From: a virus
DNA: 27,059 nt
Direction: 5' to 3' (one strand)
Virus record (IMG/VR): IMGVR_UViG_3300025732_000223
Span: 1 to 27,059 of that record
Of the stretch, positions 2,256-19,168 are shown piece by piece. A model generated the notes under the pieces. That model was not told the origin of the DNA. It worked only from the letters and a program-made list of their open reading frames with translations, and made no database searches. The position numbers and the translations under genes were made by a program. Each line of letters begins with the position of its first letter. Within the stretch, counting starts at the first letter, position 1.

Positions 2256-4700
2256 TTACCTCGCAAGAGCGTACTTAAAAGGGTTTTCAGCAAAGGCGGC
2301 GTAGATGTAAGTTCTTGTTCCAAACGAAACTTCGCCAGCGGCTGGGTTGGTTGTGTAGATTTTAAAACCGTTTGATAACAAATCGATTGTCGCTGTTGTT
2401 GCGCCGTTAGCGCCTTCCGCAGAAGTATCATTCGGCACAAGCCAAGATGTAGCTGGCGCTGCTACGTTATAAGTTTGGCGAGAACTATCAAAAATAAACC
2501 ATCTTTCTACGTTATCTGAGTTTTTCAGTATGATTAAACGTGGCCTAAAACCAAGATAGGTAAATGTTCCGTTCGTTGAATTGTTGTTCGTCCACGTACC
2601 AAACGCGCTGTAGCCAGCGATTGGGGCGAAGCAGTAAGCAACAATGTTGTCATTGTTTGTATACGCTGCTGTTGTCATTGAAAACACGGTGCTTGTCGGT
2701 GCAGCTGCAAAATATCCTGCCGCCGCCGCTGCAGTGCTGTTCAAAATCAATCGCTGCGTGTAGCCTAACGAAACGTGATACACGTCCCAATTAAATGCGG
2801 AAGAACGGTCTTTTACAATAATAAAACTTGGTGCAACACCTAAACCGTGACCAATAGTGTTGTTTGCTGATGTTGAAAAAGTCCAAGTAACAACACTAAA
2901 TCCAGCAGTGGAATTGACGCTAACGGTAGACGTTCTATTGCCGTCGGTGTTGGATGACGATGAGCCAGCACCAGCAAGCCATTGCCAACCGACATAAGTA
3001 GCCGCATTGGTGTTCATTTGAGCCAGCGCACCAACAGTAAAGCCCGTGCTACCAAACGCAGTTAAGCCTGTTGTCTCTGTTGTCTCTGCTGTTGTTGTGT
3101 TGCTCTCTAACTGTTTTTGCACACCACGAACAGAGTCATATAGCGCATGGTCTGTTGCACCACTTCTGCCTTTTACCCAAACAAAGTCAGGATAAAAAGA
3201 TGCGCTACCAACAGTGTTTGCAATGGTTAAAGAAGCTCCGGTTCCAGTGTATGTTGTAGCCGCCATATACCCCGCACCATTCGCAATCGTCGGCGTTGAC
3301 AGGTTTTGAGTGCAAAGTGCTTTGAAGCCTGATGGGGCGGTGTAGCTAAATGCGCGTTGACCGAAGTTAAAATCAAATGCTCCGTTTGAGTTATAAAAAG
3401 ACACTGCTGGCATCATTGTCGTTGCTGTGCCTGACAGCGTACCTGTTGGTGACGTGCCAGCAGCAGGGTCACCTTGTACCCATGAACCTGATGTATTCCT
3501 AAACCAAATTTTTCCTGCGTCGGCATCGTAAGCAATTCCAATAGTACCGTTAGCAAGAGCAGGAGCCGTTCCAGAAACCGTAAAATTGCTTGAGTAAAAA
3601 TTACCTAACGTGGTTGTATACCCCCAACCAATCGCATTACCACTACTTGCTAAAGAAGTTCCATCAGCAAAACCAATGTAGCTTTGTATGCCAACAATAT
3701 TTACTGTTGATGTTGTTGGATTATTTACAGCAACTTCCCAATACCATTTGCCAGTAGTCATTGGAAATGTGCCGTAAATTATTTGATGGTTTGCTGTGTT
3801 ATCTCCGGATACTTGAAGATTCCCTGTGATAGCAGAAACCCTGCTATTTTTAGCGACAGGGTTCATAACACAATAATTCCCACGCACCGTACCACCAGCG
3901 CCAGTGTCAGTGCCATACGGTGTCGGCGTGTCAACCATTGAATCGTAAGTTGCGCCAGCAGTAACGCTAATGTTGTTAGGTGTCCAGTTGTTTCCGTTGC
4001 CGGAATAGTCCTTGCCGATAGTTGCAGCAGTGTTGTTGCTGTTATCGCTGAAATTCAGATAAAAGCCGTTCGTTCCGTAAGTGCCAGTGTATCTCGCTGG
4101 CCCCCACACGCCAGTTGTCGTGTTGATTGCGCCGAAGCTAGATGGCGTTAGTTGCTGACCGTCGATGAAGTTGACTTCGGTAAGGTAGCCGTCAAAGTAG
4201 TTTTGTGATGCTGGAACTCCATAAGCACCTAATGCATGAGAAACAGCAGAGTTAATATAGGTACTAGAATTTTGAGTAGGATAAGTTATAGTGCCACTAA
4301 AAGATGTAATCTGAGTTCCATTTACATAGAACTTTACTCTGTTTGTGTTTGTTGCTTGTGTCGTATCAACCGCAATAACTAAGTGATACCAAGCAGACGG
4401 GTCACGAAAAACTTGGGTTGTGTGATATTCCCCATTTGACCCCGCATTGATATACAGAGCAAGGCTATCCCCTGTTTCAAAAAATATATTATCCGTCCCT
4501 GTTGCAAAAAATAGTCGCTGTGTAACGCTAAGTGTTCCACGCTTTATCCATGCACTCCATGTCCAAATCTTGTTGTTTGTCGGTGTTGTCAGCGTCCGAT
4601 TGAAATACGCACTTGCAGCCGAGCGCAGACGCACACTGCGGCTGATTTGATAGCCGGTAGCGCCGCCTTTACCTAAAAATATGTCTTTTGAACTAAACAT
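2256..4700 (-). CDS. Tail fibre / receptor-binding protein with LamG- and SPRY-like domains
   Basis: An 814-aa beta-rich protein. Residues about 25-185 look like a concanavalin/LamG fold (WTWSAWIKRG, FYVNGTQI, GYLTEVNFIDGQQL). Residues about 285-460 look like an SPRY/B30.2 domain (GKWYWEVAV, IGFADG, IGIAYDADAGKIWFRN). The C-terminal third contains three diverged copies of one beta module, each opening with (F/L)(V/I)xVKxR-like strands and a D-S-R/V element (FVWVKGRSGA, FIIVKDRSSA, LIILKNSDNV) and ending in an aromatic strand (YVGWQWLAG, NIVAYCFAP, YIYAAFAENP). This matches a fibre-tip module I associate with DUF7483. It starts in a TAATG overlap with the upstream fibre gene. It is probably the host-recognition protein; the ligand is unknown. 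Confidence 0.8.
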   Translation of the reverse strand: MFSSKDIFLGKGGATGYQISRSVRLRSAASAYFNRTLTTPTNNKIWTWSAWIKRGTLSVTQRLFFATGTDNIFFETGDSLALYINAGSNGEYHTTQVFRDPSAWYHLVIAVDTTQATNTNRVKFYVNGTQITSFSGTITYPTQNSSTYINSAVSHALGAYGVPASQNYFDGYLTEVNFIDGQQLTPSSFGAINTTTGVWGPARYTGTYGTNGFYLNFSDNSNNTAATIGKDYSGNGNNWTPNNISVTAGATYDSMVDTPTPYGTDTGAGGTVRGNYCVMNPVAKNSRVSAITGNLQVSGDNTANHQIIYGTFPMTTGKWYWEVAVNNPTTSTVNIVGIQSYIGFADGTSLASSGNAIGWGYTTTLGNFYSSNFTVSGTAPALANGTIGIAYDADAGKIWFRNTSGSWVQGDPAAGTSPTGTLSGTATTMMPAVSFYNSNGAFDFNFGQRAFSYTAPSGFKALCTQNLSTPTIANGAGYMAATTYTGTGASLTIANTVGSASFYPDFVWVKGRSGATDHALYDSVRGVQKQLESNTTTAETTETTGLTAFGSTGFTVGALAQMNTNAATYVGWQWLAGAGSSSSNTDGNRTSTVSVNSTAGFSVVTWTFSTSANNTIGHGLGVAPSFIIVKDRSSAFNWDVYHVSLGYTQRLILNSTAAAAAGYFAAAPTSTVFSMTTAAYTNNDNIVAYCFAPIAGYSAFGTWTNNNSTNGTFTYLGFRPRLIILKNSDNVERWFIFDSSRQTYNVAAPATSWLVPNDTSAEGANGATTATIDLLSNGFKIYTTNPAAGEVSFGTRTYIYAAFAENPFKYALAR

Positions 4701-9171: not shown

Positions 9172-10080
9172 TTAAATCAATCCGAAGTATTTAGCACCTA
9201 TCATCCCGCCGGTGCCTGCTAAATTGTAAAGTCCCGCATTACCTGCATTGTAATTTGCAGATTGAATACCGTATTGATCCATTGCCGCTTGGTTTTGAGC
9301 CAGCGCACCTTGCATAATTGGTGGTGGCGCAATTTGCGTTGGTTGATATCCTTGAAATGATGGCATCATAATTTGCGAGCCTGACATCAAACCAGTGATT
9401 TCGTTTAATGGTTGTTGACGCAAATATGCTTGACGTTGCAATTCTTGTTGTGAAGCAGCATTTTCTGCTGCTACTCTTGCTGCTTCTTCATTAAATCCTT
9501 GTGCGCGAATACCTGTTCCTAAATTGATGCCTTGCAATGCGGCTTGCGTCAGCAAATCGTTTTGTGCTTTTGCTTCATCCAATTTGGCATTGCGGTATGC
9601 TTCGCCGCCAACAGTCAAGCCTTGATTGGCTAATGTTTGTTCAAGTTGATTAGAACGACGCGTTAAAGTGGGTTCTAAACGCGACATGATTGCTTCTTGC
9701 GCGGTTGTATCTGCATTGACAGGCAACGGCGGCAAATTGGATGTATCAAATTTTGTTTGCAATGCACCGACTGTTGGTTTAAATCCTTGCCCCAACACAT
9801 TTTCCGCAGTGCTAACACCTTTTTCACCTAAAATAGCTAACGCCTTTTGAACGCGTTGCTGTGCTTCAAATGTTTTTTGCGCTTCAGGTGTTAAACTTTG
9901 CGTAATCGTGGGTTGATTGTTAGCGCCAAACGTAACTGTTTGAGAACCAGTTGGCCCATATACATTAGGATTGTTTAAGTAACCTTGTAATTTGGCAGTA
10001 GCTTCATTTGCTGCGCCTTGTGCTTGTGCTGCGCCTGCGTAGTCCGGTGCTGGTGGCGCTGCTGGTGCGCTTTTACCCAT
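9172..10080 (-). CDS. Internal virion / ejection-type protein
   Basis: A 302-aa Ala/Gln/Asn-rich protein. The N-terminus is Pro/Ala-rich (SAPAAPPAPDYAGAAQAQG), then YGPTGSQTVTF and a long helical region (residues about 70-230) with heptad-like Leu/Ala spacing. It ends in Gly/Ala-rich residues (NAGNAGLYNLAGTGGMIG) that could insert into membranes. The NVYGPTGSQT(V) element followed by LTPEAQ is a recurrent pattern in podovirus genes located between the tail hub and the large ejection proteins. It overlaps the upstream acetyltransferase gene by 8 nt, with GGAG ahead of the ATG. A role in DNA ejection is inferred. Confidence 0.7.
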   Translation of the reverse strand: MGKSAPAAPPAPDYAGAAQAQGAANEATAKLQGYLNNPNVYGPTGSQTVTFGANNQPTITQSLTPEAQKTFEAQQRVQKALAILGEKGVSTAENVLGQGFKPTVGALQTKFDTSNLPPLPVNADTTAQEAIMSRLEPTLTRRSNQLEQTLANQGLTVGGEAYRNAKLDEAKAQNDLLTQAALQGINLGTGIRAQGFNEEAARVAAENAASQQELQRQAYLRQQPLNEITGLMSGSQIMMPSFQGYQPTQIAPPPIMQGALAQNQAAMDQYGIQSANYNAGNAGLYNLAGTGGMIGAKYFGLI

Positions 10081-10513
10081 GATGTCGTGCTCCTATTTTG
10101 CTTCTGTATTTGTCAGTTAAAAATCGGCACTCATCATGTGCCATCGTATAGAAAACAATGTCACCTTCAGGTCGACCATCTTTAATTTTGCTTTCTTCGG
10201 TGAAACCCATCTTTTTCACTAGGCGCGTACTTTCTTCATTGTCGCTGCCAACAGGCACAATAATTTTATCAACTTGCGCGGTGTTATAGGGATAATCAAA
10301 GATAACGGCAAGAAAACGCGGTGTCATGCGCCCTTCAACGGCAATATGACACCAAATCGATTTCTTGTTCCAGTTTTCGTAGATTACGCCTGCCACAATC
10401 TCGCCGTCCTTTTTTAGTCCAATTGCCTGCGAACGATTAGCGTCGTAGCCACCTTGCACACGCTTGGCAACCCATTCGCCAATGTCCGTGCCGTACACTA
10501 TATGCCAGCCCAT
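10073..10513 (-). CDS. GNAT-family acetyltransferase-like protein
   Basis: A 146-aa protein with the GNAT pattern: a conserved early strand (AIGLKKDGEIVAGVIYENW, residues about 30-49), a central strand-helix (MTPRFLAVIFDYPYNTAQ) and VDKIIVPVGSDNEESTRLVKKMGFTEESK near residues 82-110, which fits the acetyl-CoA-binding region and the 'N..S..L..K.GF' signature. Related GNAT-like genes occur in podoviral structural operons, where they may modify a virion protein or have lost activity. It overlaps the tail-hub gene by 16 nt and the next gene by 8 nt. The substrate is unknown. Confidence 0.8.
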   Translation of the reverse strand: MGWHIVYGTDIGEWVAKRVQGGYDANRSQAIGLKKDGEIVAGVIYENWNKKSIWCHIAVEGRMTPRFLAVIFDYPYNTAQVDKIIVPVGSDNEESTRLVKKMGFTEESKIKDGRPEGDIVFYTMAHDECRFLTDKYRSKIGARHHG

Positions 10514-12949: not shown

Positions 12950-13510
12950 CTAACTTGCCTCGACTAAATCTGCGGTTTTTTTCGGTCGTCCGGGCGCACG
13001 CTTTTGCGGTTCTTGACCTTCAAGCAACATAGCCATTTTAGCTTCCAAATCGGCTAACTTTTGCTTGGTTTCTTCAAGTTCTGATGCGCTATCCGAACGG
13101 TTTTTGTTGTTCAAGTAAACGCGGGCGCGCTCGCGCAGTCCTGCTCCACCCATGCCAATACGCTGCATTTGGCTGTCGGATGCGAGTGCTACTTGTTCAA
13201 CGGTTTGAAACTTGAGAATCTGCAATTCTTCCAATTGATTGTAAGTAAGATCGGCAGGTGCATTTTCGTGCCACGAACGTAATGGCGTGCCAATCATGGC
13301 GCTTTTGCCTTCTTCGTGCTTCATTTGAAAATACAGCCATTGACGCGGGAAACGCTCTTTGTGATCCTCACGCACGCGTTGTTCAACAATGCTGGTTTTA
13401 TCGCCGGGGATCATAATCCGAACAAACGGTTCGCCCTTGTAAGGTTCATCCTTGAAATGATAAAACTCAACGTGTAATTGTGAATCTGCGTTCTGAATAT
13501 CACTGTCCAT
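12950..13510 (-). CDS. Probable DNA-binding (helix-hairpin-helix-like) protein in virion operon
   Basis: A 186-aa protein. Residues about 12-60 form a small beta-rich domain (VEFYHFKDEPYKGEPFVRI). Residues about 86-135 have the spacing of a helix-hairpin-helix/RpoA-CTD-like fold (LEELQILKFQTVEQVALASD then MGGAGLRERARVYL). Residues about 141-165 are a likely coiled coil, and an AT-hook-like GRPKK is at 174-178. The start is the ATG at 13510 because AGGAG sits 8-12 nt upstream and it clears the preceding gene by 23 nt; a longer in-frame form would run deep into that gene. I recall similar proteins in podoviral structural modules, with no established role. DNA binding is an inference from the motifs. 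Confidence 0.7.
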   Translation of the reverse strand: MDSDIQNADSQLHVEFYHFKDEPYKGEPFVRIMIPGDKTSIVEQRVREDHKERFPRQWLYFQMKHEEGKSAMIGTPLRSWHENAPADLTYNQLEELQILKFQTVEQVALASDSQMQRIGMGGAGLRERARVYLNNKNRSDSASELEETKQKLADLEAKMAMLLEGQEPQKRAPGRPKKTADLVEAS

Positions 13511-13533
13511 TGCTTTTTCTCCTGTGGGGATAC

Positions 13534-14361
13534 TTAAATGTTGTTCACTTGCGTTACGGTCAAAATGACCGATGGAATTGCTGGTACTGGTGAAGATGCT
13601 GATGCAGCCAAAATTTGGCAACGTGTGTCATCGGTTGACCACATCAATTGAAAATACTGCCCTGCCGTAAGACTTGTTACAAAATTCCATGCTGCAATTG
13701 TTTCTGCTGATGAGCCTTGTATTGCTATTTTACTTGCCGAATTTGCTACATCTGAACCATTCAATCTCAACCAAATATAAATATTTCCTACTGCTCCTGC
13801 TGTTTTGTGCAACTGTGCAGAAAATTGGATATTGTAAATGCCCAAATTATCAACAAGAATGCGCGACGTTGGGCTACTGCGTGAAACACCATTTGATGAA
13901 TCCGTTGTATTAAACGTCATCGCATAAGCGGTATTAGTTGCTGCCGCTGTTTGCGTTGTTGTGTCGTAAAACGAACCGTAATGCAAAATCGGCATTGAAC
14001 CGTTGTATCCCTGCACGCACTCCCAAACCGTCTTTGTTACGGCATCAAAAATGCCGGTGCAACTGATTGGGATGCTGACAGAACTAGCGCCAGCTATTGT
14101 TGAAGTTGATTCGTAGGGATACACCGTAAGCGTGCTCGCGCCGCTATTGGTGATCCAAATCGTTTCTCCTTCTTCAGTTGGCGGTAACTTAACGCCTGTG
14201 CCTGATGAAACCGTGCCGACGTTGTTGTAAACTTTGACTAACTGTAATGCGTCCGTGCGCGTTGTTCCCGATGCGGTTAAAGCGGTCGAACCGTCTCCGC
14301 AAATGGAGACGGTTGCTAACTGAGATGAACCCGAACCTAGAACCCGCGACGGGATCGGCAT
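13534..14361 (-). CDS. Beta-rich virion/appendage protein with C1q-like C-terminus
   Basis: A 275-aa protein. Residues 1-120 are clearly homologous to the whole 119-aa product of the gene immediately upstream: both start M(P/A)IPSRVLGxG and share SICGDG, TDALQL and TGVKLPPTE. Residues about 125-275 form an added beta domain (YGSFYDTTTQTAA, AYAMTFNTTDSSNG, GIYNIQFSAQLHK) that resembles C1q/TNF-like jelly rolls found on phage fibres and decoration proteins. One nucleotide separates it from the upstream gene. Probably displayed on the virion surface; the exact location is unknown. Confidence 0.65.
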   Translation of the reverse strand: MPIPSRVLGSGSSQLATVSICGDGSTALTASGTTRTDALQLVKVYNNVGTVSSGTGVKLPPTEEGETIWITNSGASTLTVYPYESTSTIAGASSVSIPISCTGIFDAVTKTVWECVQGYNGSMPILHYGSFYDTTTQTAAATNTAYAMTFNTTDSSNGVSRSSPTSRILVDNLGIYNIQFSAQLHKTAGAVGNIYIWLRLNGSDVANSASKIAIQGSSAETIAAWNFVTSLTAGQYFQLMWSTDDTRCQILAASASSPVPAIPSVILTVTQVNNI

Positions 14362-14362
14362 A

Positions 14363-14722
14363 TTAGGCAGTCGTTACCGATACCCAAGTCGTTGCGCTAG
14401 TGGCGAAGAACAAAACGCCCTTGCCGTTGGCGATGTTAACGCTTGAAGCGGCGGCGTTGATTGTTGAGCCTGTTGGTGGGTAGGCAACGATTGTTTGACC
14501 GGAACCATTAAACACGCCAACCATTGCGCCGACTTCGGTCGGTGGCAACTTAACGCCGGTCGAAGCCGACGATGTGGTGATGGCGTTGAACACCGCCGAC
14601 AATTGCAACGCGTCGGTCGCGGTCGAGCCAGTGGCTACCAAACCAGTTGCGCCATCGCCGCAAATGGATAAAGCCGAAAGAGGGGAGTTGCCTGCGCCTA
14701 AAACGCGTGAGGGGATTGCCAT
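14363..14722 (-). CDS. Small beta-rich structural protein
   Basis: A 119-aa Ser/Thr/Ala-rich protein with the same pattern as the N-terminal domain of its downstream neighbour (IPSRVLGAGNSPL, SICGDGATGL, TDALQL, TGVKLPPTEVG, then YPPTGSTINAAASSVNIANG). The composition and the lack of catalytic motifs point to a virion component. Its strong SD (AAGGAG about 8 nt before the ATG) suggests high expression, as for coat and decoration genes. The function is not known. Confidence 0.7.
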   Translation of the reverse strand: MAIPSRVLGAGNSPLSALSICGDGATGLVATGSTATDALQLSAVFNAITTSSASTGVKLPPTEVGAMVGVFNGSGQTIVAYPPTGSTINAAASSVNIANGKGVLFFATSATTWVSVTTA

Positions 14723-14734
14723 TTAATGCTCCTT

Positions 14735-15382
14735 TTAAGTAAGTTGAAAGCCACGATGTGCTTTTTTCTGCTCTCTGTGCCAGTGATAAGCCATCGGAGC
14801 ATTTTGGTAGTGCCGAAAACCCGGTATTCCTTGCGTCCAGTGCAAAATCTTTGCTTCTTCATTTGTGCCGTACTCATCGCACAGCCAATTCCATTCGGCA
14901 GGCAACTCGCCGACTTCTTCGTCGTTTAGCCAATAAAACTGGTGTGACACGACAGAGTTGACAAGTTCTATTTTATTTGATTTGTGTCCACAATTCCACA
15001 ACATTACGCTAGACCAGTTTTTGCGTGGGTAGTCGAGGTTGGGCGATTCCATGTCGGTGCCGATATACTTAACCGTGCCATTCGTTTTGTAGTCATTTTT
15101 GACCACTTGAACGGCAAATTTTTCATCGCGCATCGCCCACAGTTTGGCTATGTCATCCAAGCAAACCATGTCCGAACCATCGGCAAAGATCGCCCAACCG
15201 TCGTAATTACAGATTTTGGGAATAGCAAAGCGGCTATAAGTAAAAGCGTTAGAGCCGGTGGATTGCGGCCCATGCAGCGGCAGGATGGCGATTGGCTCGG
15301 ATGCGCGCGAGACAATTGAGTTCACAAACACGCCAAGCCCTGCGGCTTCGCGCTCATCCCAACCGCAGAAAAGCCGAATCAT
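14735..15382 (-). CDS. GT8-like glycosyltransferase
   Basis: A 215-aa protein. IRLFCGWDERE at the N-terminus, FTYSRFAIP at about 47-55 and WAIFADGSDMVCLDDIAKLW at 63-82 match the nucleotide-sugar-binding region of GT-A enzymes, with DGSD (68-71) in the place of the metal-binding DxD. Downstream NWSSVMLWNCGH and ILHWTQGIPGFRHY fit the acceptor/metal His region. It overlaps the methyltransferase gene by 4 nt (ATGA) and is the last gene of a four-gene transferase cassette. It would transfer a sugar from a nucleotide donor; the acceptor is unknown. Confidence 0.8.
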   Translation of the reverse strand: MIRLFCGWDEREAAGLGVFVNSIVSRASEPIAILPLHGPQSTGSNAFTYSRFAIPKICNYDGWAIFADGSDMVCLDDIAKLWAMRDEKFAVQVVKNDYKTNGTVKYIGTDMESPNLDYPRKNWSSVMLWNCGHKSNKIELVNSVVSHQFYWLNDEEVGELPAEWNWLCDEYGTNEEAKILHWTQGIPGFRHYQNAPMAYHWHREQKKAHRGFQLT

Positions 15383-15855
15383 TTATACCCCACAACGCGC
15401 ATATCTCGATTGGGAACGTGGAACAGCGCGTCGGTTACTTCCACATCCCTAAAACCTGCCGTTTTTAATAAATCAGCAATTTCATCCTTTGAATAACACC
15501 ACTTGTGCTGCATTGCGGCAGGTTCAGACATACCAAATAGGGCGCGTCCAATCATCCCTTCGCTGCGGTGTCCGTGATTCCACAAGCCGATAATTTTATC
15601 CAAACAAGGCATCTCAAGCGTTAGTTTGCCATTATCGCGTAAGACGCGATGCCATTCGCGCAACGTGTTTTCCACGTCACCGCGCTCAAGGTGTTCAAAC
15701 AAATGAATGGCGGCGATCTCATCGACCGAGCCGTTATCCATCTCTAAACGGCGCACGTCTGACAAGATGTCAGGTTCGCCAGCGATGTCCACGCTAGTCC
15801 AAGTAGGCCAGTGGCGATCACCAGCACCTAGATGGAGTCGAATACGCTCGCCCAT
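15379..15855 (-). CDS. SAM-dependent methyltransferase, class I
   Basis: A 158-aa Rossmann-fold methyltransferase. Motif I LHLGAG is at 7-12, the acidic end of strand 2 is at Asp23 (SVDI), SDVRRLEMDNGSVDEI holds motif II, and AAIHLFEHL at 48-56 plus LREWHRVLRDNGKLTLEMP give motifs III/IV. This is the Methyltransf_11-type pattern. There is no obvious target-recognition domain, so a small-molecule or sugar substrate is more likely than DNA. It starts 28 nt inside the upstream glycosyltransferase gene and ends in an ATGA overlap. In this context it may methylate a glycan made by its neighbours; that is inference. Confidence 0.85.
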   Translation of the reverse strand: MGERIRLHLGAGDRHWPTWTSVDIAGEPDILSDVRRLEMDNGSVDEIAAIHLFEHLERGDVENTLREWHRVLRDNGKLTLEMPCLDKIIGLWNHGHRSEGMIGRALFGMSEPAAMQHKWCYSKDEIADLLKTAGFRDVEVTDALFHVPNRDMRVVGYK

Positions 15856-16679
15856 GCCGCGCCGATCCTTTCGGGTGAATACTTGGATGCAATGTAATCT
15901 TGCGCTCGAATCGTCAATTCATTGAGTTCGTGGCTAAATGCTTGCGTGTATTGCATACCGCCTTTGAGCGAACCCAAATAAATGTAGTCGCGAAAATCCC
16001 TGTAATTTAGGCTATTTTCTGCGACAACAAAGCATCCAGCCATTACCGCGCTAATCAAGCGATTTGCGCTTTTGTAAGTGTTTGGATCAGAAACAGGCAA
16101 AATAACCACGTTAGCACGCGCAAATTCGGCTTTTAACGCATCTTCTGACCACGGTACATAGGTGGGTAGCACGTTGTTATTTCCGGTGCATAGGCGCAGT
16201 TTTACGCCCTTTAGCATGGGTAAATACTTGTAGATTTCCTTAATGTTGGATTCATGCCCAAACCACAGGAAATTATCGCCATTGGCGTGCACTGGCGCTT
16301 CGTGCTCCCAAGTGTCGGGCACAACCTGCGCGTCAATTTTGGTGTGCGTATAGATGCGGCGCGCCATTTCTTCGGTCGCGCAGGTCACGCGATCCGCTAA
16401 TTTGGCGCATTTTGTGTAGATTTCGCCCCAAATGGGCTTGTCAAAATGATCGTCGCACAAATCCACAACGGATTTTGCGCCCGAATCGCGTACTTTTTGG
16501 ATGATTTCCACGTCATCAGCGTGCGGTTTGGAGAAAACCACAATATCCGCGTCACCTTCGTTGATAAACGACCGATAACCGTGTTTTTTGATCTCAGATG
16601 CAGGAATCGCCACGCGCAGGCGATAGGATGCCATGCGTGGCCCGCCTCTGTGGATGAAACTTACGCCGCGAGTTTCCAT
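15828..16679 (-). CDS. Glycosyltransferase, GT4/GT-B-like
   Basis: A 283-aa protein. The N-terminal half opens with FIHRGGPRMASYRLR and contains a Rossmann-like half (DADIVVFSKPHADD, KSVVDLCDDHFD). The C-terminal half has FLWFGHESNIKEIYKYLP (about 137-154), LRLCTGNN and FARANVVILPVSDPNTYKSANR ... AVMAGCFVVAENSLNYRDF (about 186-229). The last stretch matches the nucleotide-sugar-binding 'E.(M)..G.PVV' region of GT4-type enzymes. It overlaps the neighbouring genes by 19 and 28 nt. It is probably a sugar transferase acting with the other cassette members. Confidence 0.75.
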   Translation of the reverse strand: METRGVSFIHRGGPRMASYRLRVAIPASEIKKHGYRSFINEGDADIVVFSKPHADDVEIIQKVRDSGAKSVVDLCDDHFDKPIWGEIYTKCAKLADRVTCATEEMARRIYTHTKIDAQVVPDTWEHEAPVHANGDNFLWFGHESNIKEIYKYLPMLKGVKLRLCTGNNNVLPTYVPWSEDALKAEFARANVVILPVSDPNTYKSANRLISAVMAGCFVVAENSLNYRDFRDYIYLGSLKGGMQYTQAFSHELNELTIRAQDYIASKYSPERIGAAWASVFDSI

Positions 16680-17437
16680 TCGCGCCTAACTTTCATAATT
16701 TCAGCAATTAAACCATCGCCTCTGACATCCAATGTGATGTCAGGCATGACAGTATAAACCAACTGAAACTCATTAGCCTGTTGCGCCATTGCCATGTTAC
16801 ATAAAAATTTACGCTTGTGCGGCGGTTCGCCCACCATCACTTCAACTGTGCGGCCTGCTTTCTCACCCGAAAAGCGTTTTGTGCCATCTTCTTTGATGCA
16901 CGAATCGTAACCGTACAGAATGAATTTACGGAATCCCAACAAATAGCCTAGATTGATTGCGCGCAACCCACTGGTTGTGCCGCCACCAACTGCTAGGCGT
17001 GTGCCAATTTCTTTCATTTCATCATCGCTCGACCAGCTATTCCACAGCAGTATCTTTTTATCTGCCAAGTGGTCAAACATCACCGGATCGCAGCGCGATG
17101 CTAATAAATAGGTGGTGTGATCGTTTTTGCGCTGCACACCATTGCGCTTGTCACGCGGATCAAGATCAACCCACAAGTCGGGTTCTAATCCGTTTTCGCA
17201 CAACCAATCGTGCGTGCCCTTGATTGAACAAATAGGCTTGCCCTGCTCTTTGTGCGCTTTTATTTCGTCAAAATACTCTGTCACTGAAGGCCCACTCCCC
17301 ACCAGCACGATAGTTCCATCGTGCGGGCAGGGGGCAGGGGTAAACTCCGGTAAACCACGATCCAACGCCGCGCGGATATTTTGAGCGAGTTCCGCAGGCT
17401 CGCCTGCGGCTTGAACCGAGATTTCCAGTTTTTGCAT
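16661..17437 (-). CDS. DUF115 / MptE-like protein
   Basis: A 258-aa protein with a DUF115-type core: IVLVGSGPS at about 43-51, ICSIKGTHDWLCENGLEPDLWVDLDPRD spanning about 69-96, then GGGTTSGLRAINLGYLLGFRKFILYGYD. This fold occurs in 6-hydroxymethylpterin pyrophosphokinase MptE and in flagellin glycosylation (Maf) proteins, so it binds a nucleotide or nucleotide-sugar. I chose the ATG at 17437, one base after the upstream stop; a TTG five codons earlier also exists. It leads the cassette directly behind the capsid decoration gene. Function (sugar transfer rather than pterin synthesis) is inferred from context. Confidence 0.75.
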   Translation of the reverse strand: MQKLEISVQAAGEPAELAQNIRAALDRGLPEFTPAPCPHDGTIVLVGSGPSVTEYFDEIKAHKEQGKPICSIKGTHDWLCENGLEPDLWVDLDPRDKRNGVQRKNDHTTYLLASRCDPVMFDHLADKKILLWNSWSSDDEMKEIGTRLAVGGGTTSGLRAINLGYLLGFRKFILYGYDSCIKEDGTKRFSGEKAGRTVEVMVGEPPHKRKFLCNMAMAQQANEFQLVYTVMPDITLDVRGDGLIAEIMKVRREWKLAA

Positions 17438-17438
17438 C

Positions 17439-17918
17439 TTAAGTGCCAGCAATACCCGAAGCGATATGCGGGTAACCTGCGATACAGGTCACAGCAGTCG
17501 CGTTGGAGATTGATGTCGTGGCTACCAAGCCGAACACGGCACCGCCTGACACCACAGCGTCATCAAGCACGCCCGATGTTGCAGTGGTGTAAAGAGGCAC
17601 GTTAGGGGCAGCATTAGCAGCAAGGTTAACCAAAACCTTACCACCCATTTGCACCCAACCGTAATAGCCCGAAGCGATGGATGTTTGCGCGAAGCCGATA
17701 CGCTTGCAAGTTGCTGCGAGCGTGGTGGTCATCATCTGCGCCTTTTGCGTGTCATAAATTGCGACAGCAGCGTAGGTGCTGATTTCCGACAGGGCTTGCA
17801 CATAAATGGCTTGACCACCATCCGACAAATTGACAACAGTACCCGTAGTGAACTGCGAGGTGCTGTCAACGTTGGTAAGGGTTACGCCAGCGGTGTTGCT
17901 AACTGAAAAAGTAGGCAT
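17439..17918 (-). CDS. Capsid decoration/head-stabilising protein candidate
   Basis: A 159-aa protein rich in Ala, Thr, Val and Gly with a beta-rich pattern (TTGTVVNLSDGGQAIYVQ, YYGWVQMGGKVLVNLAANAA, VPLYTTATSGVLDD). Such genes directly behind the coat gene in phages usually encode small beta-barrel decoration or cement proteins. AGGAG lies 8-12 nt before the ATG, similar to the SD of the capsid gene, fitting high expression. No signal or membrane segment is visible. Assignment rests on position and composition. Confidence 0.7.
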   Translation of the reverse strand: MPTFSVSNTAGVTLTNVDSTSQFTTGTVVNLSDGGQAIYVQALSEISTYAAVAIYDTQKAQMMTTTLAATCKRIGFAQTSIASGYYGWVQMGGKVLVNLAANAAPNVPLYTTATSGVLDDAVVSGGAVFGLVATTSISNATAVTCIAGYPHIASGIAGT

Positions 17919-17934
17919 TTTCTATGATCTCCTA

Positions 17935-19168
17935 TTAAGCAATCAGCACGCCGCAGAACTGCGGGCCGCTGCTTGTGAGGTTACCGGCCCAACCAATTAG
18001 CTTCACGATAGCGTCTTGGTTGACCGCTTGGCGTTCGCCACCGATTGGCACGAAATTACGATCCGCATGGGGACGGAACATCATGTATTTCGTGTTGAGG
18101 AACCACATGTGGTTAGCAGTAGCGGCTGAACCGATACCACCGTCGAGCACAACGTCGGATGCCATACCAGCGCCGAAATACTTCAGCGAGGCAAAGCCCG
18201 CGCCAGCCATTGACGAACCACTGTCGGTAATACGCTGAATCGACTGCAACGATTGCAGGTACAAGCGATAGTAGTTGTTGTCGGCAACGATCAGGTCAGG
18301 TTTGTCCGTACCGCGAATCAGTTGCACAGCGACCGAATCCATGTACTGCTGGATGTTGGACGCAGTGACAGCCGCACCGCCGTTGGTCACGCCCGAATAC
18401 GACACGGAACGCCAAAACGTCCACGCGGAGCGATCAATACCACCGTATGTGCCGGTCACAGGCGAATCAGGCACAGCAGCGCCCAAACCGGTGATGTTTT
18501 TGCCAGCGTTGCCGGTTCCATCCAAATAGATGTCCGAACCGATACGGTTAGCCAATTGCGCTTCGGCAACATTCATACGACCGTCAAGCAGGTCAATGAT
18601 CGCCTCTTTGCCGCTGTTCTGAATCATTTCCAAACCGCTGATCGACACTGCCGACGCGTATTGGGTAATTGAGAACTGAGCAGCCGAGATCGGGCTGTTT
18701 TGCGACACATTCAACACTTCGTAGCCGGAATAGCTATTGGTGTTGTTCGTTGTGCTGTCGTTGTACATAATTTCCTGGCAAGGTTGTTACGAGCTACAAC
18801 TGCTCGGCGTGGTCATTTCTGCCACACTCTCGAACTTAAATGACTTCAAGTTATATTCGAGTTCAGACTATCGCTTCACCTTTGCAGGTGTTCTCTCGCT
18901 TAGTCGTTCACGGTGCTTTCGCTTCCGCCTTGTTGTCCCCTTCGGGAGTTCCAAGTCAATCAGAGAGAATTCTCACATCTGCGTTTCAATGCAGAGTGAC
19001 CCCAACATTAAGGATTACGTTACCACCGGAAAACGGCTTAACGTTGCCGCGCTCTTTCAAACGACGCAGTAAAGCGTTGTTGTTTGTTACGTTATCAGCT
19101 AACTCACCGCTACGCGATTGGATGTTAGTCGCGATGATGTCGCTGATTGAACTATTGGCGAATGCCAT
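17935..19168 (-). CDS. Major capsid protein, gene split by a group I intron (exons 19168-19011 and 18778-17935)
   Basis: Exon 1 (19168-19011) gives codons 1-52 plus two bases; exon 2 (18778-17935) completes codon 53 and runs to the stop. Joined they make 1002 nt and a 333-aa protein. The junction reads GGNVIL-QEIMYNDS, the continuity I expect for this coat family, which also shows NSPISAAQFSITQYA, DIYLDGTGN, KPDLIVADNNYYRLYL and VNQDAIVKLIGWAGNLT. It should be an HK97-fold shell subunit working with the upstream scaffold and portal. SD AGGAG lies upstream of the ATG. Without splicing, translation stops at TGA 18988-18986 after 60 aa. A downstream ATG at 18768 begins a 277-aa frame that would lack the N-terminal arm; automated callers may report it as the whole gene. 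Confidence 0.9.
18779..19010 (-). ncRNA. ORF-less group I self-splicing intron in the major capsid gene
   Basis: The 232-nt intron runs from U 19010 to G 18779 on the minus strand. P1 pairs exon AUCCU (19015-19011) with intron GGGGU (19003-18999), with U.G at the splice site. P2: UCUGC 18995-18991 / GCAGA 18982-18978, extended by CAC/GUG. P3: UUCUCUC 18969-18963 / GAGAGAA 18897-18891. P4: CUUG 18955-18952 / CAAG 18932-18929. P5: UCCC/GGGA. P6: GCGG 18928-18925 / CCGU 18913-18910 with a GAAA-capped P6a. P7: GACUA 18905-18901 / UAGUC 18870-18866. P8: CACCU 18890-18886 / AGGUG 18881-18877. J8/7 is AAGCGA. P9 CUCGAA/UUCGAG, P9.1 GUGUGG/CCACGC and P9.2 CGAGC/GCUCG follow. P3 and P7 have the required interlocked order. 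P10 is not evident. Subgroup is not assigned; compact size resembles the Azoarcus and Anabaena tRNA introns. Confidence 0.92.

Follow-up and report, generated by a model that had tools for sequence, protein, structure and literature searches.

We describe a group of four overlapping genes in an uncultured phage, IMG/VR virus record IMGVR_UViG_3300025732_000223 (27,059 nucleotides (nt), analysed in full and referred to here as the window), that probably glycosylates a structural protein of the virion, as predicted from its genes, a protein fold and the genomic context. This group, the cassette, encodes a DUF115/MptE-like protein, a GT4-like glycosyltransferase (GT), a methyltransferase (MT) and a GT8-like GT. 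Virion glycosylation is favoured because of the Maf-like fold of the DUF115 protein, gene fusions within the same genomic slot of relatives, full gene sets in altered orders, co-occurrence of the genes, covariation of DUF115 with a putative decoration protein, and the pattern of ribosome-binding sites. The cassette consists of the following genes:

16661-17437, minus strand: DUF115/MptE-like protein with Maf-core fold, 258 amino acids (aa), from Pfam PF01973 and an AlphaFold2 model; proposed initiating protein glycosyltransferase
15828-16679, minus strand: tentative GT-B, GT4-like glycosyltransferase, 283 aa, from weak matches of relatives and fusion to DUF115
15379-15855, minus strand: class I S-adenosylmethionine-dependent methyltransferase (MT), 158 aa, from Methyltransf_11/23 and phrog_6636
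14735-15382, minus strand: GT8-like GT-A glycosyltransferase, 215 aa, from PF01501 just under the cut-off and phrog_28018

Organisation and integrity of the cassette

All long open reading frames (ORFs) of the head-tail module in the window ORF list are on the minus strand, in the 5' to 3' order capsid, putative decoration protein, DUF115, GT4-like, MT, GT8-like, b1, b2, p13 and tail genes. Starting at the decoration gene and ending at b1, successive genes are spaced by +1, -19, -28, -4 and +12 nt. A sequence-only reading of the window had proposed four genes at 14735-17437, overlapping by 4-28 nt and lying between the decoration gene and small beta-rich virion genes; the coordinates of the four intact minus-strand ORFs agree with this on both counts (overlaps of 19, 28 and 4 nt), the decoration label remaining putative. 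The three overlaps are identical in all rows holding the genes (DUF115 and GT4, n=30; GT4 and MT, n=29; MT and GT8, n=12), where the window is one of the rows and four contigs are entered a second time, with L027 and L032 removed by the start filter. Given that divergence among the GT4-like proteins of these rows reaches about 50% of residues, the gene overlap is not due to chance. Across eight pairs of relatives, the ratio of non-synonymous to synonymous substitution rates (dN/dS) lies in the range 0.02-0.16 for all four genes, with one outlier (GT4 at 0.33, in a very close pair with a dS of 0.03). The possibility that the genes are degenerate is not upheld, as all four are intact and the low dN/dS indicates that they are working genes. 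Read by eye, no clear Shine-Dalgarno sequence precedes the enzyme genes and the flanking structural genes have AGGAG, a pattern that fits low, catalytic enzyme amounts produced by translational coupling.

The DUF115 protein has a Maf-core fold

The DUF115 protein matches PF01973 (MptE-like) at 59.8 bits, above the cut-off of 34.6 (E 3.7e-16). It was modelled with AlphaFold2 from a 23-sequence alignment, with a mean predicted local distance difference test score (pLDDT) of 75.9 and a predicted template modelling score of 0.79. By both Foldseek (5.8e-9) and VIA, the model fits best to the Magnetospirillum Maf structure 5mu5, in its central domain, where residues 13-251 of the model superpose on chain positions 244-504 (VIA Z 18.8, 218 aligned residues, 3.0 A). 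Archaeal MptE is second (8sd5_B; Z 16.0, 195 residues, 3.1 A), followed by SteA (Z 13.8) and the sialyltransferase CstII (Z 10.2). When the sequence profile was compared with the PDB, Maf was the sole match, a weak one (E 0.025). No relative of the DUF115 protein was found in the genome contig collection, nor any match in 50,697 phage records.

Maf transfers nonulosonic acid to Ser/Thr residues of flagellin, and MptE, for which the Pfam family is named, is a 6-hydroxymethylpterin diphosphokinase. The DUF115 protein shares with the Maf flagellin O-glycosyltransferases a central-domain fold as well as GSGPS, PD and GF-GxD stretches. Unlike them, it is set in a phage head operon, is known here from genes alone, and lacks the N- and C-terminal domains, its 258 aa amounting to the central domain alone. 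The comparison with Maf made in the sequence-only reading thus holds for the fold of the central domain and fails for full-length homology. In PMC11339370, Maf is described as a three-domain protein with N- and C-terminal domains, the pfam01973 central domain being the CstII-like part of an O-glycosyltransferase that acts on flagellin Ser/Thr.

The partner enzymes

Among the family names first given to the four genes, DUF115 and methyltransferase pass Pfam cut-offs, GT8 falls just below, and GT4 is drawn from weak matches of relatives. The MT exceeds the cut-offs of Methyltransf_11 (31.2 against 21.2 bits, 3.6e-7) and Methyltransf_23 (34.7 against 27 bits, 1.9e-8) and also matches the methyltransferase family phrog_6636 (7.9e-10). 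The GT8-like protein scores 23.3 bits against Glyco_transf_8 (PF01501; cut-off 24.3, E 5.7e-5), and so is named GT8-like only; it matches phrog_28018 at 4.1e-24, its homologue in L146 passes the PF01501 cut-off with 27.0 bits, and proteins of this type conserve DxD/DxxD, KNWSS and HxTxGxP stretches. The GT4-like protein of the window has no usable Pfam match. Its relative in L012 matches Glyco_transf_4 (1.9e-4) and Glyco_trans_1_4 (0.023), both below the cut-off, and the GT4 match of the L209 relative is likewise sub-threshold. The AlphaFold2 model of the GT4-like protein is poor (pLDDT 57.5), and PDB profile searches with the GT4-like and GT8-like proteins returned nothing useful.

One slot, with a constant DUF115 gene and variable partners

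The gene neighbourhood comparison called for by the sequence-only reading found the same slot reused across relatives, with other gene orders and fused versions of the genes. Loci were collected in three scans, baited with DUF115 (the best 80 of 303 encoding stretches kept), with GT4 (55 loci) and, so as to avoid the bias of a DUF115 bait, with the major capsid protein (MCP; 80 loci, of which 69 have complete slots running from capsid to p13). Among the best 80 of 303 DUF115-baited loci, 27 have GT4 and seven have GT8 in the slot. DUF115 is present in 26 of the 69 complete MCP-baited slots and absent from 43, and GT4 occurs in seven of the 69, always with DUF115. These slots measure 1319-3676 nt with DUF115 and 362-2048 nt without it.

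Full sets occur in more than one arrangement. Six divergent loci of the GT4-baited scan stand out: L144 and L146-L148 have the order DUF115-GT8-GT4-MT (L146 with an extra sugar C-methyltransferase, Methyltransf_13/23/14, before GT4), L150 has DUF115-GT4-MT-GT8, and L149 is a fragment with GT8-GT4-MT. DUF115 and GT4 form a single ORF in 10 loci (L209-L211, L215-L218, L220, L221 and L225). The DUF115 protein carries an N-terminal extension of more than 200 residues in 15 loci, as judged from stop-to-stop ORFs, and the aligned extensions (8 of the 15) match glycogenin with an E of 0.0035. A C-terminal methyltransferase is fused to DUF115 in L169, L196 and L177, and L234 looks similar by eye. Other neighbours of DUF115 are an FkbM methyltransferase (L233) and hexapeptide acyltransferases (L195 and L199). 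DUF115 is thus the constant element and its partners vary, and its fusion to each kind of partner in one slot is the strongest evidence that the enzymes work on one product. Together with the conserved overlaps, co-occurrence and recurrent presence in this slot, the fusions lend good support to the earlier suggestion that the genes act together.

A second, separate DUF115 gene follows the DUF115-GT4 fusion and a methyltransferase in L209 (9272-10000), and also in L211, L215, L216, L218, L220 and L225. A scheme of accretion, by which GT4-MT and then GT8 were added to DUF115, was dropped because the wider loci (L144, L146-L150) and the tail12 tree allow gain or loss alike. On this tree of 115 rows the cassette states together need 12 changes and the “empty” state needs 10, at least six of them forced by starred branches.

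Co-occurrence was counted in 39 long records, which were hand-picked and include many kin. DUF115 is found in 26 of them, GT4 and MT both in the same 14, and GT8 in nine, in seven of which it lies away from the slot; none of GT4, MT and GT8 occurs in the 13 DUF115-negative records. Sixteen of the 26 DUF115-positive records have GT4 or GT8. The other ten comprise eight from loci with the N-terminal extension, L177 with its fused methyltransferase, and L160, where no partner was found. The idea that DUF115 acts alone in a sister clade is weakened, as both long records from there (G002 and G009) have a GT8-like gene elsewhere and one of them additionally carries a methyltransferase.

Flanking genes and candidate acceptors

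The cassette is flanked by the following genes:

17935-18768, minus strand: major capsid protein (MCP), C-terminal part (phrog_9953 major head protein, 7.9e-88)
17439-17918, minus strand: putative capsid decoration protein (phrog_29386), directly upstream of DUF115; the favoured acceptor, as proposed here
14363-14722, minus strand: small beta-rich virion gene b1, with an N-terminus in common with b2 and an AGGAG ribosome site
13534-14361, minus strand: beta-rich virion gene b2, with a BclA/C1q-like C-terminus (BclA_C 4.6e-4, below the cut-off)
12950-13621, minus strand: conserved gene p13 (phrog_20268, 3.6e-14), which closes the slot on the tail side and is the far side of complete slots; as listed it overlaps b2, its real start probably being near 13510

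The decoration label comes only from the match to phrog_29386 (“virion structural protein”, head and packaging, 2.5e-7) and from the place of the gene after that of the MCP; the protein has no match in the 50,697 phage records. Its Ser/Thr content is 23%. Across 34 loci, after allowing for tail genes, its divergence covaries with that of DUF115 (partial r 0.68, and 0.95 and 0.80 within two clades). The equally adjacent pair of MCP and decoration protein gives 0.10 overall and 0.08 and -0.23 within the two clades, and MCP with DUF115 gives -0.09. We treat this covariation, a sequence-based result, as a lead and not as proof; that the decoration protein is the glycan acceptor is possible, if somewhat doubtful.

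The b1 and b2 proteins are also rich in Ser/Thr (26-27%), and b1 has no significant family match among Pfam and phrog profiles. Their genes (13534-14722) have an N-terminal part in common, to which b2 adds its BclA/C1q-like domain, and matches in relatives vary in identity and at times occur as one copy only, as if b1/b2 were a modular head appendage. No b1/b2 homologue was found in L144, L146-L148 or L150, loci in which the complete enzyme set is retained, and this sets back the candidacy of b1/b2 as obligate acceptors.

Proposed function and alternative explanations

Modification would be sequential, taking place in the cytoplasm of the host at the time of late expression. The initiating step may fall to DUF115, which would move a sugar from a nucleotide-activated donor of host origin to Ser/Thr residues of a virion protein. 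The likeliest such protein is the neighbouring decoration protein, which is rich in Ser/Thr. Extension of the glycan would be the task of the GT4- and GT8-like enzymes, the MT would cap or edit it, and the product may shield or tune the virion surface. The catalysis by DUF115, the order of steps, the acceptor and the donor are all proposals that we infer. No genes for sugar-nucleotide synthesis were seen, by eye only, in 13.5 kb of the close relative L236.

Several observations weigh against virion glycosylation by a cooperating cassette. A pterin pyrophosphokinase has the DUF115 fold too, and the window protein corresponds to no more than the core of Maf. GT4 is not seen in the slot of 53 of the best 80 DUF115-baited loci, some contigs ending there. 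The 30-kb record G041/L160 has DUF115 with no homologue of GT4, MT or GT8 found, and GT8 is absent from all seven long records of the GT4-MT clade, from which it follows that GT8 is dispensable. The Fisher values (0.018, 0.0009 and 0.009) overstate independence, as the records are related. The glycogenin-like fusion domain could not be aligned to the GT8 of the window by profile comparison (probability 0.3%). The covariation of DUF115 with the decoration protein is largely one swap, the L121 type having 95% identity to the relative L002 of the window in the MCP, 66% in the decoration protein and 51% in DUF115; without this type the value falls to 0.32, below that of DUF115 with p13 (0.41).

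The sequence-only reading had left a choice between glycosylation of a virion protein and remodelling of host surface sugars, and of these the former is our best reading and the latter is less likely. Enzymes that act late on lipopolysaccharide or capsule, freeing progeny or blocking re-adsorption, would come from GT and methyltransferase families such as are common in surface-polysaccharide pathways, and the GT8 gene does lie outside the slot in the DUF115-only records G002 and G009, in G002 among early recombination genes (read by eye). However, no membrane-spanning segment is evident and no flippase is found in the cassette, which is repeatedly placed exactly between the decoration gene and p13, inside the morphogenesis operon, and the fold of DUF115 is that of a protein glycosyltransferase. 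A tyrosine integrase was found in none of the 26 DUF115-positive long records versus four of the 13 negative ones, and a serine resolvase in none of the 39; the absence of both searched integrase families from the DUF115-positive records is at odds with lysogenic conversion. Host-sugar remodelling is therefore judged improbable.

A glycan on a virion protein other than the decoration protein, that is the MCP, b1/b2 or a tail fibre, is somewhat unlikely. It would agree with the position of the Ser/Thr-rich b1 and b2 directly downstream, and MCPs are acceptors in glycosylated mycobacteriophages according to PMC11256854; against it are the lack of detected b1/b2 homologues in the five divergent loci and of covariation between MCP and DUF115. 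Finally, DUF115 might act like MptE, on a pterin, a nucleotide or a component of phage DNA, with its neighbours serving small-molecule or DNA modification. MptE is the second-best fold match and gave its name to the Pfam family, but the enzymes fused or linked to DUF115 belong to glycosyl- and methyltransferase families and the genes are placed in a late morphogenesis operon, making this explanation very improbable.

Relation to known phage systems

Phage-encoded glycosylation of virions is known from mycobacteriophages such as Che8 (Freeman et al. 2023, as cited in PMC13313380 and PMC11256854). These phages are similar in that phage glycosyltransferases, sometimes with a methyltransferase, accompany glycosylated capsid proteins, as demonstrated or suggested. 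The window phage, known here from genes alone, differs in having a DUF115-centred cassette in a constant slot next to the decoration gene; PMC11256854 describes a phage whose GT genes are located towards the 3' end of its genome.

The podovirus ctDrO704 (MW202512.1) similarly encodes a methyltransferase and a GT8-like protein (39.5% identity over 95%) in the region that separates its capsid genes from its tail genes. Unlike in the window, no DUF115 was found in its slot, where a tetratricopeptide repeat (TPR) protein is encoded instead. The slot (L155, 5254-8687) holds the TPR protein, an HNH-like gene, the methyltransferase and the GT8-like gene. TPR repeats joined to an unassigned C-terminus resemble the architecture of FlmG, but a FlmG-like reading of this TPR protein is not claimed, its C-terminal 305 aa having neither a Pfam family nor a meaningful PDB match.

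The window MCP has relatives in Mx8-like phages, the best phage record giving 52.5%. In the Mx8-like phages Bradyrhizobium ppBjS10J-1, Stenotrophomonas BUCT555 and ctMlz233, the genes for MCP, p13 and tail proteins are related to those of the window and follow one another as they do there, but the slot holds none of the four cassette genes. In the literature searched, with subscription papers mostly outside it, there was no recognisable report of DUF115, MptE or Maf genes in phage head operons. While phage virion glycosylation is already known, a cassette next to a decoration gene in which a Maf-core enzyme stays constant and its partners vary thus appears to be new.

Other features of the window

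The MCP gene of the window is split by a 232-nt insert (18781-19012), which is missing from the 99%-identical relative L004, where the capsid frame is open across the site. Its GACTA...TAGTC stretches are what we take to be features of a small group I intron; the insert matches no Rfam family, even at E 1. In eight sources scanned, group I catalytic introns (RF00028) were found at the capsid gene in L009 (6486-6707, 60.8 bits) and L014 (6488-6707, 62.5 bits), and other relatives have capsid-gene gaps at different positions. From these introns and gaps, the capsid genes of the group look like a repeated target of introns.

Within the tail operon is a GNAT-like acyltransferase (10073-10513; phrog_4470, 2.8e-32), and ppBjS10J-1, BUCT555, ctMlz233 and ctDrO704 have annotated acyl- or acetyltransferases in roughly the corresponding position. 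An 814-aa tail fibre-like protein (2256-4700) with Laminin_G_3, SPRY and DUF7483 domains is possibly a sugar-binding fibre.

Significance

As a tentative proposal, less likely than virion glycosylation itself, the Maf-core O-glycosyltransferase may be co-inherited with its own decoration protein and combined with swappable glycosyl-, methyl- and acyltransferases, forming a fixed-slot glycan locus that would diversify the sugar coat of the heads of virulent aquatic phages, much as bacteria diversify their O-antigens. Head sugar coats are known from few cultured phages, and a recognisable mobile locus that has a conserved putative initiating enzyme would allow glycosylated virions to be predicted from metagenomes. 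If the proposal is true, the locus would be a source of protein-glycosylating enzymes that are small and soluble and come with a candidate acceptor of their own, and the purpose of head glycans in lytic environmental phages would become testable in terms of stability, clearance and adsorption to particles.

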